Source: Cyanobacteria bacterium REEB459 (GTDB taxonomy: Bacteria; Cyanobacteriota; Cyanobacteriia; Phormidesmidales; Phormidesmidaceae). From it: a DNA stretch of 42,387 nucleotides. The stretch spans positions 1-42,387 of the forward strand of contig JAGWXD010000027.1 of NCBI GenBank assembly GCA_018970085.1. Direction: 5' to 3'. A model generated the notes under the pieces. The model was not told the origin of the DNA. It saw only the letters and a list, made by a program, of their open reading frames with translations, and searched no databases. Positions 6,729-31,867 of this stretch are shown one piece after another. The position numbers and the translations under genes were made by a program. Each line of letters begins with the position of its first letter. The stretch's first letter is position 1.

Positions 6729-6802
6729 GGGCGTGTAGCTCAGTGGACTAGAGCACGTGGCTACGGACCACGGTGTCGGGGGTTCGAATCCCTCCTCGCC
6801 CG
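6729..6802 (+). tRNA. tRNA-Arg (anticodon ACG)
   Basis: A cloverleaf folds by hand. The acceptor stem is GGGCGTG with CTCGCCC, with one T6-T67 mismatch. The D stem is GCTC/GAGC, and the anticodon stem CGTGG/CCACG encloses loop CTACGGA with anticodon ACG. A five-base variable loop follows. The T arm is GGGGG-TTCGAAT-CCCTC with one G-T pair. The discriminator is G, and CCA is not encoded, so it must be added after transcription. A34 would normally be deaminated to inosine to read CGT, CGC and CGA. The gene is preceded by a consensus -10 box. Confidence 0.93.
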
Positions 6803-25179: not shown

Positions 25180-25887
25180 ATGGGAGCATCTCCTGACAGT
25201 TTACTGACTCGTCTAAACCGCCGCCTGCATTCCTATACTCTCTTACCCTTAAGCTTCCGATTGAGGTATGGCAAATTAGGAAAATACCTGGCCTACTCCT
25301 GCTACGTTCCGGGATGGATGTTCGAACACAACTCTGTGGCTCTGGCCCAGGCAGCCTACGATTTAGCCGATGACGCCACCATTCTTGAAATTGGCTCCTT
25401 TGTTGGCAAATCAGCCATTTTACTGGCGGGAGCCCGCAAGCTGCGAGGCAGTGGCAAAGTCCACTGTGTTGACCCCTTTGATGCCTCCGGCGACCCCTTC
25501 TCGGTGCCCTTTTACCAACGGGTTGCCAAACGCCGCCAAATGCCCCTGATCGACTGGTTTAAAGAGAATATGCGCTGGTGCGGCCTGACCGATTGGGTAG
25601 AGGTCTACCAGGGTACTGCCCTTGAGATCAGCCCAAGCTGGAGCTTGCCTTTAGACATGCTGTGCTTAGACGGAGACCAATCCCCTCTGGGGGCTCGAGC
25701 GGCCTACGACGCCTATATACCTTTTCTCAAAACTGGAGGCATTATTACCCTTAAAAACACCTCCGATCGGGTTTACGACGAGGGTCACGATGGCAACCGT
25801 AGACTTGCGGTAGAAACCATTGTGGAACCTCAGTACACCGATATCCGATCGGTTAATGACATGACCTTTGCACGCAAAGCCTTCTGA
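25180..25887 (+). CDS. Class I SAM methyltransferase-fold protein (Methyltransf_24-like) with altered motifs
   Basis: A 235-residue Rossmann-like protein. The SAM-binding strand is ATILEIGSFVGKSAILLAG near residues 64-82, followed by KVHCVDPFDASG for the second strand. The DMLCLDGDQSPLGARAAYDAYIPFLKTGGIITLKNTS segment matches the family block that usually reads DGDHxY...D...L..GG.I..HD. Here the first His is Gln and the usual HD after the glycines is Lys-Asn, so metal-linked catalysis of O-methyltransferase-like members is unlikely. Cyanobacterial relatives often sit in glycan or surface-polysaccharide regions, but nothing here confirms that. The gene stands alone and has its own promoter and a strong terminator. 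Confidence 0.7.
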   Translation: MGASPDSLLTRLNRRLHSYTLLPLSFRLRYGKLGKYLAYSCYVPGWMFEHNSVALAQAAYDLADDATILEIGSFVGKSAILLAGARKLRGSGKVHCVDPFDASGDPFSVPFYQRVAKRRQMPLIDWFKENMRWCGLTDWVEVYQGTALEISPSWSLPLDMLCLDGDQSPLGARAAYDAYIPFLKTGGIITLKNTSDRVYDEGHDGNRRLAVETIVEPQYTDIRSVNDMTFARKAF

Positions 25888-25933: not shown

Positions 25934-25966
25934 AAAACCAGGGGCGATGGGGTCCCCTGGTTTTTT
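25934..25966 (+). terminator. Rho-independent terminator
   Basis: AAAACCAGGGG (25934-25944) pairs with CCCCTGGTTTT (25954-25964), an eleven-base-pair stem with a nine-base loop, and the T run reaches 25966. It lies 46 bases after the stop of the methyltransferase-like gene and is the clearest intrinsic terminator in the window. Confidence 0.9.
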
Positions 25967-26740: not shown

Positions 26741-27826
26741 ATGCGTAGATTAGGATTACTGGCAGCTGCCTTGAGTTTGACCATCGCCGCCTGTAGTGGC
26801 ACTACCACCCCAGGTCCTAAGGCAACCACTGGCGGTGAAGCAGCTACAGCTACAGCTAAAAGTCGTCTGACCACAATTAAGGAGCGGGGCAAGCTCATCT
26901 GTGGGGTAGAGGGCACTATTCCGGGCTTTAGTTTTGTCGATCCCAGTGGTAAATATTCTGGTTTAGATGTAGATATTTGTCGCGCCGTCGCAGCCGCCGT
27001 TTTTGGCACCTCTGACAACATTGATAGTAAAATTGAATACCGTAATCTCGACTCTACAGCCCGGTTTCCAGCCCTTCAGAACGGTGAAGTCGACATGCTG
27101 TCGCGCAACACTACCTGGACCATTAGCCGTGACGCAGCTGGCGGTAATGGGTTAGAATTTGCCCCTACCACCTTCTACGACGGCCAGGGTGTCATGGTTT
27201 CTAAGGCCAGTGGGATTAAGAAATTTGCTGACTTAAAGGGTAAGTCGGTTTGCGTTGAAACCGGTACCACCACTGAACTCAACCTGGCTAGCCGGGCTAA
27301 GGAAGCGGGTATCACTATCAACGAAGTCAAGTTTCAAGACTCGAACGCCGCTGCCGCCGCCTACACCGAAGGTCGTTGCGAAGGCTTTACCTCTGACCGC
27401 TCCCAGCTAGCTGCCAAGCGTACCGGTCTACCCAAGCCCGAAGACAATATCCTATTAGACGAAGTTCTGTCGAAGGAACCCCTCGGGCCGGTCACGGTCA
27501 ACAATGACTCGGCCTGGTTTGATGTGGTCAAGTGGGTTACCTATGGCCTATTCCAGGCCGAGGAATTCGGCATTACCCAGGCTAATGTGGACCAAAAACT
27601 CAAGGATCCCAGCCCTGACGTTCAAAATTTCCTGGGGGTACAAGGAGAGTTGGGCCAGCAGTTAGGCCTATCTAAAGACTTTATGGCCAAGGCTATTAAG
27701 GTGACGGGCAACTACGGTGAAATCTTTGAGCGTAATGTAGGGGCTAAATCGCCCCTTAAAATCGATCGGGGTTTAAACAAACTCTGGAGTAAGGGCGGAT
27801 TAGTCTATTCTCCACCTTTCCGCTAA
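26741..27826 (+). CDS. aapJ: Amino-acid ABC transporter substrate-binding lipoprotein (AapJ/BztA/NatF type)
   Basis: The periplasmic solute-binding subunit of a polar amino-acid ABC transporter. The N-terminal signal MRRLGLLAAALSLTIAACSG ends in a lipobox (IAAC), so it is a lipoprotein. The SBP_bac_3 domain starts LTTIKERGKLICGVEGTIPGFSFVDPSGKYSGLDVDICRAVAAAVFG, then NGEVDMLSRNTTWTISRD and SVCVETGTTTELNL. It has 361 residues, a little longer than enterobacterial binding proteins but normal for AapJ/BztA. AGGAG is six bases before the ATG. First gene of the aapJQMP cluster. The exact amino acid is not readable from sequence; the Aap, Bzt and Anabaena NatFGH systems take up acidic and neutral polar amino acids. 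Confidence 0.9.
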   Translation: MRRLGLLAAALSLTIAACSGTTTPGPKATTGGEAATATAKSRLTTIKERGKLICGVEGTIPGFSFVDPSGKYSGLDVDICRAVAAAVFGTSDNIDSKIEYRNLDSTARFPALQNGEVDMLSRNTTWTISRDAAGGNGLEFAPTTFYDGQGVMVSKASGIKKFADLKGKSVCVETGTTTELNLASRAKEAGITINEVKFQDSNAAAAAYTEGRCEGFTSDRSQLAAKRTGLPKPEDNILLDEVLSKEPLGPVTVNNDSAWFDVVKWVTYGLFQAEEFGITQANVDQKLKDPSPDVQNFLGVQGELGQQLGLSKDFMAKAIKVTGNYGEIFERNVGAKSPLKIDRGLNKLWSKGGLVYSPPFR

Positions 27827-27903
27827 CCCTTAGCCCCATCGGCTCAACCATGGTCTAGGGCAACCCGGTTTTGCCTTTACCCGAGTAGGGTGGGCGGTTT
27901 CAC

Positions 27904-27965
27904 ATTCAGCCGTCGCGCTCCCAGGGCTAAGCCCTGGGAGCGCGCTCATAGCCTGAGGGCTGAAT
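27904..27965 (+). repeat. Nested palindrome inside the transporter operon, possible attenuator
   Basis: A perfect 14-base-pair hairpin, CGCGCTCCCAGGGC (27914-27927) with GCCCTGGGAGCGCG (27931-27944) and loop TAA, sits inside an outer inverted repeat of eight bases, ATTCAGCC (27904-27911) and GGCTGAAT (27958-27965). It starts 78 bases after the aapJ stop and ends about 150 bases before aapQ. There is no T-run. A processing, stabilising or partial-termination element, or a REP-like mobile palindrome, would both fit. Confidence 0.8.
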
Positions 27966-28115
27966 ACAGCTAGGATGACCTGGGGCTTTAGCTCCTGACT
28001 AGAGGACAAAGGGCTGTGGAAAGGTCGGCGCTTTGATGGCAGCAACCTTTACCAGAACAGCATGGGCAACCCCCTGTGCCTACCGATCTTATTGAGTGAT
28101 TGATTGAAGTCGCCT

Positions 28116-29282
28116 ATGGCTGAACCCTTGGATGATAAGACCCCCCTATGGAGAGATCAACGCTTTACTGGCCTGGTGTTCCAGGCGGCTGTCTTGGTTC
28201 TGGTGGTGGGCATAGCTGGGGTTCTTTTAGCCAATATGGTTCGCAACCTACAGCAGTTGGGGCGACAACTTGATTTTGGTTTTTTAAGAAATCAGTCTGG
28301 TTTTAATATCGGCGAAAGTATTCTGCCCTACCAGCCCAACGACACCTATGGTTGGGCTTTGGTCATAGGTCTTGTCAATACTCTGCGTTTGATTTTGATC
28401 GGTTTTGTCACAGCTACGGTGATCGGAACCTTGAGTGGATTGGCTAGTTTTTCTAGTAATTGGTTATTGCGTCATTTAAACTTAATCTATATCGAAGTTG
28501 CTCGTAATACACCTCTGCTCCTGCAACTTTTCTTCTGGTATTTTGTGATTTTCTTTGGCCTGGCCCAGGGGGCTGAAGCCAAGCAGGTGCTGGGTTGGTT
28601 TCTAATCAGTAAAAAAGGAATTGCCTTGCCCTGGCCAACTCCTGGTGCTTCGGTTTGGGGGGGGCTGCTGGCGATCGCCCTGTTAGGGGTCGTCGCCTAC
28701 CTGACCTGGCGATGGCGACGGTGGCTATTAGAGGAAAAAGGCCAGCACGGGCGGCTACAAACTGGACTACTACTTGGCACAGCAGCGATCGCCCTGGGGG
28801 TCTTCCTCTTTGGGCTGGGCTGGAGTCTACCTCGCCTGGATGCCAACAACAATATCCTGGGGGGGGTGCGAATCTCTCTGGAATACGCCGCCATGCTGGC
28901 AGGGCTGACCTTTTACACCGGTGCCTTTATTGCTGAAATTGTCAGGGGCGGCATTGCTTCAGTCTCTAAGGGGCAATGGGAAGCCGCTCGCTCCCTTGGC
29001 CTCAAGGGTGGCTTAACCATGGCCTTGGTGGTGTTACCCCAGGCACTGCGGGTGATTATTCCCTCCCTCAATGGTCAGTATATGAACCTGGCTAAAAACT
29101 CCAGTCTGGCTCTGGCGATTGGTTATCCCGATATTTTCGCCACCGGTCAAACCACTCAGAACCAAACCGGACGAGCCGTTGAAATTGTTTTACTGTGGGC
29201 CATCACCTATCTTTTAGTGAATTTAATCATCTCAGTGGTGATGAACCAGTTAAATCGCACTATTCAGATTCGGGAGCGTTAA
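28116..29282 (+). CDS. aapQ: Amino-acid ABC transporter permease (AapQ/BztB/NatG type)
   Basis: The first of two long permeases in the polar amino-acid transporter. About 388 residues, with extra N-terminal helices and a large periplasmic-loop region compared with short permeases such as HisQ; that length is typical of the Aap/Bzt type. NTLRLILIGFVTATVIGTLSGLASFS begins the permease core, IEVARNTPLLLQLFFWYFV is the family segment, and the EAA loop is EAARSLGLKGGLTMALVVLPQALRVIIPS. It ends QLNRTIQIRER. I chose the ATG at 28116 over a TTG at 28104. The next permease starts two bases after its stop, so the pair is translationally coupled. Confidence 0.9.
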   Translation: MAEPLDDKTPLWRDQRFTGLVFQAAVLVLVVGIAGVLLANMVRNLQQLGRQLDFGFLRNQSGFNIGESILPYQPNDTYGWALVIGLVNTLRLILIGFVTATVIGTLSGLASFSSNWLLRHLNLIYIEVARNTPLLLQLFFWYFVIFFGLAQGAEAKQVLGWFLISKKGIALPWPTPGASVWGGLLAIALLGVVAYLTWRWRRWLLEEKGQHGRLQTGLLLGTAAIALGVFLFGLGWSLPRLDANNNILGGVRISLEYAAMLAGLTFYTGAFIAEIVRGGIASVSKGQWEAARSLGLKGGLTMALVVLPQALRVIIPSLNGQYMNLAKNSSLALAIGYPDIFATGQTTQNQTGRAVEIVLLWAITYLLVNLIISVVMNQLNRTIQIRER

Positions 29283-29284
29283 CC

Positions 29285-30484
29285 ATGAGCCCCAACCCCT
29301 TGCGATCGCAGACCCGGCTAGCCTGGATCCAGAAAAATCTACTGAATAACTGGTTTAACTCCCTCTTGACCATCTGTCTGGGCTGCTTGCTGGTTTATGG
29401 CGGGGTAGGGTTTTGCCATTGGGCGTTGAAGAGCGCTAAGTGGGGGGTCATTCCCACCAATTTGCCCTTGTTTCTGGTAGGACGATTTCCCGCTGATCAG
29501 TACTGGCGAATCTGGCTGTTGGCAGTCTTGCTAGCCGGGTTAAGCGGCTGTACCTGGGGTATGTTGGCCAGTGCAGCCCCCCGTCTATTTAGCCCTTTCA
29601 ACCTGGTGGCTGTGGCCCTAGCCGCTCTGACCATGGTGCTCTTTCCCCTACCTGAAGGCAACGGCGTACTGGTTAGGGGGACACTGCTGGCTCTGTTACT
29701 GCTGCTGCTGGCGACCAGTTGGATCGCCTACAGGGCTCATCGGGGTCGACCCGCCCTGGCCCGATGGCTGTCCCCAGCCTGGGGGCTGATGTTTTTAGTG
29801 GGGTTCTGGCTAATGGTAGGAGGGCTGGGCCTGCCGGCGGTGTCATCGACAACCTGGGGAGGGTTACTGCTGACTCTCTTTATGTCCCTGATCAGTATCG
29901 CCCTCTCCTTTCCCTTTGGGGTATTGCTGGCCCTGGGGCGGCAAAGTACCCTGCCCCTGATTCGCTGGTTGTCAACCCTATACATTGAGATAGTCCGGGG
30001 TATTCCCTTGATTGCCGTTCTGTTCATGGCCTTGATTATGATCCCGCTATTTTTGCCTGGTAACTGGCGACTTGACCTGGTGTTGCGGGCGATTTTGGGA
30101 TTAACTCTGTTTACCGCCGCTTACCTGGCGGAGACTGTGCGGGGTGGCCTACAGGCCATTCCTAAGGGGCAGTACGAAGCGGCCAGTTCCCTGGGCCTCA
30201 ACACTCCGCTGTGTCTGGGACTCATTGTGTTGCCCCAGGCCCTTAAAATTTCCATTCCCGCGATTGTTGGCTTATTTATTGCCCTGATTCAAGACACCAC
30301 CCTGGTGTCTATCGTTGGCCTGTTTGACCTGTTGGGCATGAGCCGCTCAATTCTGGCTAACCCGCTGTTCATTGGGCGCTATGCAGAGGTCTACCTATTT
30401 ATCGGTATTTTCTACTGGGCTATTTGCTACGCCATGTCCCAGGGTAGTCGTTATCTGGAGCGCCAGTTAAACCAGGTGAAGTAG
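29285..30484 (+). CDS. aapM: Amino-acid ABC transporter permease (AapM/BztC/NatH type)
   Basis: The second permease of the system, about 399 residues. Extra hydrophobic helices precede the core (LTICLGCLLVYGGVGFCHWAL, then several in 90-190), as in AapM. The core holds GLLLTLFMSLISIALSFPFGVLLALG, IEIVRGIPLIAVLFMALI and the EAA loop YEAASSLGLNTPLCLGLIVLPQALKISIPAIVG. It starts at ATG 29285, with GGGAG about eight bases upstream and two bases after the aapQ stop. It must form the heterodimeric membrane channel with AapQ. The ATPase gene follows after 156 bases that may hold a second promoter. Confidence 0.9.
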   Translation: MSPNPLRSQTRLAWIQKNLLNNWFNSLLTICLGCLLVYGGVGFCHWALKSAKWGVIPTNLPLFLVGRFPADQYWRIWLLAVLLAGLSGCTWGMLASAAPRLFSPFNLVAVALAALTMVLFPLPEGNGVLVRGTLLALLLLLLATSWIAYRAHRGRPALARWLSPAWGLMFLVGFWLMVGGLGLPAVSSTTWGGLLLTLFMSLISIALSFPFGVLLALGRQSTLPLIRWLSTLYIEIVRGIPLIAVLFMALIMIPLFLPGNWRLDLVLRAILGLTLFTAAYLAETVRGGLQAIPKGQYEAASSLGLNTPLCLGLIVLPQALKISIPAIVGLFIALIQDTTLVSIVGLFDLLGMSRSILANPLFIGRYAEVYLFIGIFYWAICYAMSQGSRYLERQLNQVK

Positions 30485-30535
30485 CCGCTGGCAAGGTTTA
30501 GAACCAATGATGTTCCTGACTGTTCTAAGGTAGAT

Positions 30536-30579
30536 GTAACAGAGTTCACTGACCAACCGCAGCAGAAGGTCATTAAAAT
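30536..30579 (+). promoter_or_regulatory. Candidate NtcA-type promoter upstream of aapP
   Basis: GTAACAGAGTTCAC (30536-30549) fits GTA-N8-TAC except for one base (CAC in place of TAC). After 24 bases comes TAAAAT (30574-30579), which fits TAN3T and matches five of six bases of TATAAT. The arrangement is that of a class II NtcA-activated promoter, but the half-site mismatch keeps this a candidate. Confidence 0.4.
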
Positions 30580-30640
30580 ACCCATAATGTTTGCAGATTA
30601 GTGCTTCGCCCTGACCCAGCCCCATTCTCCCCTTAGGCCT

Positions 30641-31420
30641 ATGAATCCCCTTGAATCGGCAACCCTATCTTCCCCTGCCCTGCAGGATCAACCCATGATC
30701 AGAGCTGAGCAGGTCGAGAAGTGGTATGACAACAACTTTCACGTCTTAAAGGGAGTCAGTCTCTCTGTCAACCGGGGCGAGGTGGTGGTGATTATGGGAC
30801 CCTCCGGTTCAGGAAAATCCACCTTCATTCGCACCTTTAATGCCCTGGAAAGCTACCAGAAGGGAAGTATTACGGTTGATGGGATTAAACTGTCCCACGA
30901 CCTTAAACACATCGAGGCGATCCGGCGGGAGGTGGGTATGGTGTTTCAGCAGTTCAACCTGTTTCCCCACCTGACAGTACTGCAAAATGTCACCCTGGCT
31001 CCCATTTGGGTACGGCGCTGGCCTAAGGCTCAAGCCCAGGATGGGGCCTTGCAGTTGCTTGAACGGGTAGGCATTTTAGATCAAGCCCATAAGTTTCCCG
31101 GACAACTATCAGGAGGACAGCAGCAGCGAGTAGCGATCGCCCGTTCTCTGGCCATGCAGCCGAAAATCATGCTGTTTGACGAGCCCACCTCTGCCCTTGA
31201 CCCCGAAATGGTGCGGGAGGTACTGGATGTCATGCGCACCCTGGCCAAGTCGGGTATGACCATGGTGTGCGTCACCCATGAGGTTGGTTTTGCCCGGGAG
31301 GTGGCAGACCGGGTGGTCTTAATGGATGGCGGATATCTGGTGGAAGCCAATACCCCCGATGAGTTTTTCAACCATCCCCGGGAAGAACGGACCCAGAGAT
31401 TTCTCTCCCAAATTCTTTAG
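30641..31420 (+). CDS. aapP: Amino-acid ABC transporter ATP-binding protein (AapP/BztD type)
   Basis: The ATPase subunit of the transporter, 259 residues. Walker A GPSGSGKS is at residues 53-60, the Q loop is [17 protein letters not shown], the signature is [15 protein letters not shown], Walker B is [14 protein letters not shown], and the switch His is in [14 protein letters not shown]. All are intact, and the sequence is close to AapP, GlnQ and HisP. The N-terminal 20 residues are a poorly conserved leader; an internal start at [11 protein letters not shown] is possible. It follows aapM and probably drives uptake with AapQ and AapM. Confidence 0.92.
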
Positions 31421-31456: not shown

Positions 31457-31867
31457 ATGACAGACAAGCTGATCAATCAACTACGGCTGGATTACGAAAA
31501 CTTTCCTTACCAGCAAAGCTACCATCTCTACGCCCAGGAGGTTTACTTTAAAGACCCCCTGACTGAGTTTCGGGGGATTCAGCGTTACCAGGCCATGATT
31601 GCCTTTATGGCCCGCTGGTTTCGCTGTCTCGATTTAGACTTACACCAGATCGATTACACCAATTCCTGCCAGATTAGCACCCGCTGGACCCTGCGCTGGG
31701 TGGCTCCCTTACCCTGGCAACCAGCCATGGTGATTGTGGGGAGCAGTCAGCTGGAGTTGAACAGTCACGGGCAAATTGTTTCCCATGTAGATAGCTGGGA
31801 TTGCTCCCCCTGGCAGGTTTTTCAGCAGATCTGGAGCCGTAGGGGACAAAAACCGGGGCCGGGTTAG
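31457..31867 (+). CDS. DUF2358 domain-containing protein
   Basis: A 136-residue protein of the DUF2358 (SnoaL-like-fold) family, found mainly in cyanobacteria and plants. The matching features are LRLDYENFPYQQSYHLYAQEVYFKDPLTEFRGIQRYQAMIAFMARWF and the later WTLRWVAPLPWQPAMVIVGSSQLELNSHGQIVSHVDSWD with the family-end tryptophan motif. No enzyme function is established. It starts 36 bases after the aapP stop on the same strand and may be read through from that transcript, but there is no functional link known to me. Confidence 0.85.
   Translation: MTDKLINQLRLDYENFPYQQSYHLYAQEVYFKDPLTEFRGIQRYQAMIAFMARWFRCLDLDLHQIDYTNSCQISTRWTLRWVAPLPWQPAMVIVGSSQLELNSHGQIVSHVDSWDCSPWQVFQQIWSRRGQKPGPG

Follow-up and report, generated by a model that had tools for sequence, protein, structure and literature searches.

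What is the role, if any, of a strong palindrome that separates the binding-protein gene of an amino-acid ABC transporter from its permease genes? In ABC importers, binding protein is needed in large excess over channel, a ratio that operon structure by itself does not give. A palindrome at this position is found in a stretch of 42,387 nucleotides from Cyanobacteria bacterium REEB459 (contig JAGWXD010000027.1), hereafter called the window. It is a single-copy, strongly structured element at a place where cyanobacteria repeatedly carry hairpins. Hairpins of this kind are already known, and the interest of this one lies in the recurrence of a structure whose sequence turns over. No published description of this particular hairpin, or of hairpins between binding-protein and permease genes as a class, was found in a search by title and beginning of abstract, with most subscription journals lying outside the search.

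The order of the genes around the palindrome, with a family-3 binding protein followed by two BPD permeases and an ABC ATPase, is that of a polar amino-acid ABC operon (aapJQMP or natFGH-bgtA; Table 1). In Anabaena, the order natFGH-bgtA (alr4164-alr4167) is described for the N-II system of acidic and neutral amino-acid transport (PMC4500139), which the window cluster resembles in gene order. The initial annotation had placed the palindrome in a gap of 289 bases inside an otherwise compact cluster. The size of the gap was verified, from the TAA ending at 27826 to the ATG at 28116, and an alternative natG start, TTG, lies 12 nt upstream of this ATG. Compactness holds for the two permease genes, separated by 2 nt if the natH-like gene starts at the ATG at 29285 (ORF starts were assigned mechanically), but not for the ATPase gene, which follows after 156 nt (30485-30640). 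Among the best 80 of 231 loci, the binding protein has its nearest named relative in Nodosilinea nodulosa PCC 7104 (81% identity), and the genome probably belongs to Nodosilinea. The natG-like permease shares 68% identity with its counterpart in a PCC 7104-like genome and only 46-50% with those of 23 other genomes of the same genus, and the cluster may therefore be a divergent or transferred version; a further match, in genome G010, reaches 64% over 130 residues only. Upstream of the cluster, a methyltransferase-like gene (25180-25887) is followed by a canonical terminator-like hairpin with an 11-bp stem and a T-run (25934-25964). Immediately downstream of the ATPase gene, a gene for a DUF2358 protein (31457-31867) lies on the same strand.

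Table 1. Features of the transporter cluster and its intergenic hairpin (positions in the window).
Feature	Position	Strand	Basis
natF/aapJ-like gene, family-3 amino-acid-binding protein, 361 aa	26741-27826	+	ORF; Pfam SBP_bac_3, E 2.7e-15
289-nt gap, binding-protein gene to first permease gene	27827-28115	+	
Nested hairpin, outer 8-bp stem around perfect 14-bp stem	27904-27965	+	Repeat search, fold
Inner perfect 14-bp stem, TAA loop	27914-27944	+	Arms 27914-27927 and 27931-27944
natG/aapQ-like permease gene	28116-29282	+	ORF; Pfam BPD_transp_1
natH/aapM-like permease gene	29285-30484	+	ORF from ATG at 29285; Pfam BPD_transp_1
bgtA/aapP-like ATPase gene	30641-31420	+	ORF; Pfam ABC_tran, E 3.3e-40

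The palindrome itself proved to be as first described, with a perfect 14-bp stem, a three-base loop and an enclosing eight-base repeat. The outer arms, ATTCAGCC (27904-27911) and GGCTGAAT (27958-27965), are perfect over 8 bp and match at 81% when extended to 16 nt, and the predicted fold also contains a small 3-bp hairpin. The structure starts 77 nt past the binding-protein gene and ends 150 nt short of the first permease gene. Folding of 27896-27975 as RNA gave -46.1 kcal/mol (z -5.82), and none of 200 shuffles was equally stable. With loops of 3-10 nt allowed, no perfect Watson-Crick stem of the window exceeds the 14-bp one in length, and ten dinucleotide-preserving shuffles of the window yielded no stem of at least 11 bp. 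Long perfect stems are rare in this genome but not unique, because seven of at least 14 bp, the window stem included, occur in 362,387 sampled bases (the window and 16 further stretches). None of the 136 other sampled gaps of 60-400 nt reached -40 kcal/mol locally, compared with -45.6 in the window gap; these gaps (86 tandem, 14 convergent and 36 divergent) derive from a crude, mechanical ORF model. A z below -2 was found in 5 of the 86 same-strand gaps. An internal promoter was also considered and rejected, as a scan for sigma-70-like promoters alone gave no match on the + strand of the gap. The window contains 6 NtcA-type GTAN8TAC sites (4.66 expected), and both the gap and the 240 nt preceding natF are free of them.

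The same junction was compared in relatives. The 105 relatives' loci (L015-L119) comprised the best 80 of 231 contig loci and 25 loci of the same genus. A natF-natG junction was measurable in 87 of them and in none of the other 18; the gap was shorter than 40 nt in 23, 40-699 nt long in 61 and at least 700 nt in three. After removal of sequences more than 70% alike, the 61 gaps and the window gave 38 non-redundant gaps, among which some kinship remains. A z below -2 was observed in 29 of these 38 (28 of 37 without the window) and a z below -3 in 20, the window included. The corresponding counts below -2 were 5 of 21 for natG-natH gaps, 2 of 17 for natH-bgtA gaps and 1 of 16 for pieces of natF coding sequence (Fisher p 2e-4, 1e-5 and 2e-6, respectively), although the z test is stronger at natF-natG because these gaps are longer (median 209 nt, versus 73 nt at natG-natH, 156 nt at natH-bgtA and 122.5 nt in tandem gaps). 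Strand asymmetry first looked like a further mark of a role at the RNA level, with the sense fold stronger in 23 of the 38 gaps and the antisense fold in 11. It was dropped because natF coding pieces were equally skewed (27 versus 9 of 37); the window itself has a slightly stronger fold on the antisense strand (-46.5 versus -45.6 kcal/mol for sense).

The junction hairpins of the relatives have different sequences and lengths and stand at different distances from the stop codon. In two Planktothrix loci (L057 and L071) and one from an Oscillatoriales MAG (L069), the junction holds one copy of a dispersed 28-nt palindrome, GTAGAGACGTNNCATGNNACGTCTCTAC, which is present in 12, 4 and 18 copies in the respective genomes. 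Single copies were found both for the natF-natG gap of the PCC 7104-like genome, which holds a hairpin comparable to that of the window, and for the L051 palindrome. Unrelated palindromes, some of them apparently mobile, thus hold the same natF-natG site. The hairpin is dispensable in other lineages, since the z test found no significant hairpin in 9 of the 38 gaps, and 23 of the 87 junctions were shorter than 40 nt. Three of those nine gaps (L017, L018 and L019) carry a stem of 11 bp that resembles a terminator, T-run included, and the short junctions belong to Cyanobium/Synechococcus-type loci and are mostly 1-nt overlaps.

Other transporters of the same genome carry comparable structures. 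With the PF00528 profile, 31 segments were recognised as permease, and 30 of the loci were examined. Excluded were seven loci without an upstream ORF, 12 with a gap shorter than 40 nt (among them L152 and L161, which have binding proteins upstream) and L158 (z -2.19), whose upstream ORF is spurious, lying opposite or within natG. A recognisable binding-protein gene stood directly upstream of the permease at seven loci, with a gap of at least 40 nt at five, and z was below -2 in four of these five gaps (L144, -3.1; L147, -2.7; L153, -2.9; L165, which is the window gap, -5.4). The potD-potB-like gap of 70 nt elsewhere in the window (L169; 33596-33665, minus strand) contains a hairpin of -28.2 kcal/mol that is not significant (z -0.5 to -0.7). 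None of the five comparable gaps before permeases without a recognised upstream binding-protein gene had a z below -2 (four of the upstream genes were typed, L163 excepted). With the window left out, three of four binding-protein junctions compare with 5 of 86 tandem gaps (Fisher p 0.002). Across 38 genomes of the order, with the present genome counted for both of the junctions that follow, hairpins were present in 9 of 10 pstS-pstC gaps, the 14 pstC-like loci having been reduced by one with a short gap and three without a binding protein. The signal was weaker at nrtA-nrtB (8 of 19 gaps), for which five loci with short gaps and one without a binding protein were removed from 30 nrtB-like loci; several low-identity loci lacked a hairpin, and L191-L200, at only 43-46% identity, may be paralogues.

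Taken at its own position, the window element is a stable hairpin just 3' of an upstream gene, inside a putative operon and without a U-tract, and a protective function fits it by place, by strength and by the missing U-tract. The element at 27904-27965 probably acts as a 3'-protective hairpin, perhaps with a degree of attenuation, through which the mRNA of the binding protein stays more abundant than that of the permeases. This reading is favoured because of the stable fold, the lack of a U-tract, the single copy, the junction-specific recurrence and the precedent of malE. In Escherichia coli, an intergenic hairpin shields malE mRNA from 3'-5' exonucleases after cleavage in malFG, and the binding-protein gene is the stabilised gene in five ABC operons including mal (PMC5927463). 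Among the 34 protected 3' ends described there, 26 followed hairpins that lack a U-tract (PMC5927463). The malE-malF and window structures are alike as strong, U-tract-less hairpins that part the binding-protein gene of an ABC operon from its permease genes. For E. coli operons of this type, measurements exist of decay, half-lives and 3' ends (PMC5927463), whereas the window hairpin is known from structure and recurrence; moreover, 17 of 26 such structures in E. coli lie inside the coding sequence downstream, whereas that of the window is intergenic. According to evidence cited in PMC7843447, hairpin terminators also stabilise mRNA in Synechococcus PCC 7002.

Transcription starting upstream of natF would pass through the hairpin, and the natF-natG-natH-bgtA transcript would carry it as a cis-acting 3' structure. 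An endonuclease of the RNase E type would cut the downstream permease and ATPase part, which would decay, and the GC-rich 14-bp stem would halt 3'-5' exonucleases. The upstream natF mRNA would then last longer, and binding protein would be made in excess over permease, possibly with some added pausing or termination at the stem. Here we infer co-transcription, protection from RNases and the effect on protein ratio alike. The proposal of the initial annotation, that the structure stabilises the upstream mRNA or reduces read-through and so yields an excess of binding protein, finds partial support in the position of the hairpin, its recurrence in the 29 natF-natG gaps and the hairpins at other binding-protein/permease junctions.

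The same outcome would be reached by a partial terminator, or attenuator, if a fraction of transcripts ended after natF and read-through supplied the permeases. U-tracts follow 13 of the 38 junction hairpins, several of them in genomes of the same genus, and termination or attenuation is therefore likely at the junction in some relatives. The pstS-pstC hairpin of REEB459 itself is followed by CTTTTAG. In addition, Rho is apparently absent in cyanobacteria, and intrinsic hairpins are thought to be their sole terminators (PMC7843447). The window hairpin shares with cyanobacterial intrinsic terminators a GC-rich stem, a short loop and a position 3' of a gene, but differs in the U-tract (PMC7843447). 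No more than two T occur in the 8 nt after its stem, and the terminator scan listed neither it nor any other site in the gap; lacking a U-tract, it falls outside the canonical intrinsic terminators. A canonical one with a T-run exists nearby, at 25934. For the window, attenuation as the main explanation is a live but rather unlikely alternative to protection.

It had also been proposed that the palindrome is a REP-like mobile element that inserted between natF and natG, and other mobile palindromes are considered with it. REP and REPIN palindromes are defined by many dispersed genome copies, and the malE-malF hairpin is itself a REP sequence; the window element resembles them as an extragenic palindrome inside one ABC operon but differs in being single-copy. 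The genome search for further stems that the initial annotation had called for returned one copy, with up to three mismatches allowed. The outer arms and the 289-nt gap likewise have no second copy in this genome, the remaining matches to the gap being short (E 0.125 or worse). Because it is single-copy there, the hairpin is not REP-like in its own genome. Origin from a plasmid was rejected, with zero matches in 72,556 plasmid records. The idea does describe the dispersed junction palindromes of the two Planktothrix and the MAG, but neither the PCC 7104-like gap nor the palindrome of L051, and for REEB459 it is very improbable.

An equally slim chance is given to the gap as the source of a trans-acting RNA or as the target of an sRNA; the natF 3'-UTR might, for example, give rise to such an sRNA, or one might bind ahead of natG. 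AbcR1/2 of Sinorhizobium base-pair 12 nt before the start codon of aapQ and reduce the level of its mRNA (PMC8844928), which makes this junction a point of control in a relative. The hairpin sequences are nevertheless not conserved among relatives, and a known RNA family was rejected, as Rfam at gathering score identified in the window only the tRNA at 6729-6802. Chance or functionless structure, for which the seven perfect stems in 362 kb might speak, is scarcely credible given a z of -5.8 and recurrence at the orthologous junction.

With protection as the preferred reading for the window, a wider proposal can be made, about which we are slightly more doubtful than confident. Gapped binding-protein/permease junctions of cyanobacteria may be selected for a hairpin of any sequence and may be repeatedly refilled by unrelated palindromes, terminators and dispersed mobile ones included, that set the excess of binding protein; lineages with fused gaps would have to achieve it otherwise. 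The general pattern was partly anticipated by a predicted RNA element (cluster 86) between nrtA and nrtB of Synechococcus elongatus PCC 6301 (PMC2662882). It too is a structure predicted between cyanobacterial binding-protein and permease genes, but it belongs to another transporter, its description gives no function, and it was detected from sequence shared between genomes (PMC2662882), a similarity absent from the natF-natG hairpins. If the pattern holds, many cyanobacterial transporters reach their ratio by an intergenic hairpin of freely changing sequence. It would offer a clear example of function conserved without conserved sequence, make stoichiometry cheaply predictable from genomes, and explain the role of some mobile palindromes after landing.

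Long stems also occur elsewhere in the genome. Perfect intergenic stems of 18 bp (L136:3694-3738) and 17 bp (L131:4919-4959) have no transporter link at their sites. Another perfect 18-bp stem, with a 3-nt loop and no U-tract (L124:17407-17445; G000:C100:97407-97445), stands 12 nt past an rpoB-like gene, as judged by eye, and 82 nt before rpoC1, an intra-operon position in the same style as the natF-natG hairpin.
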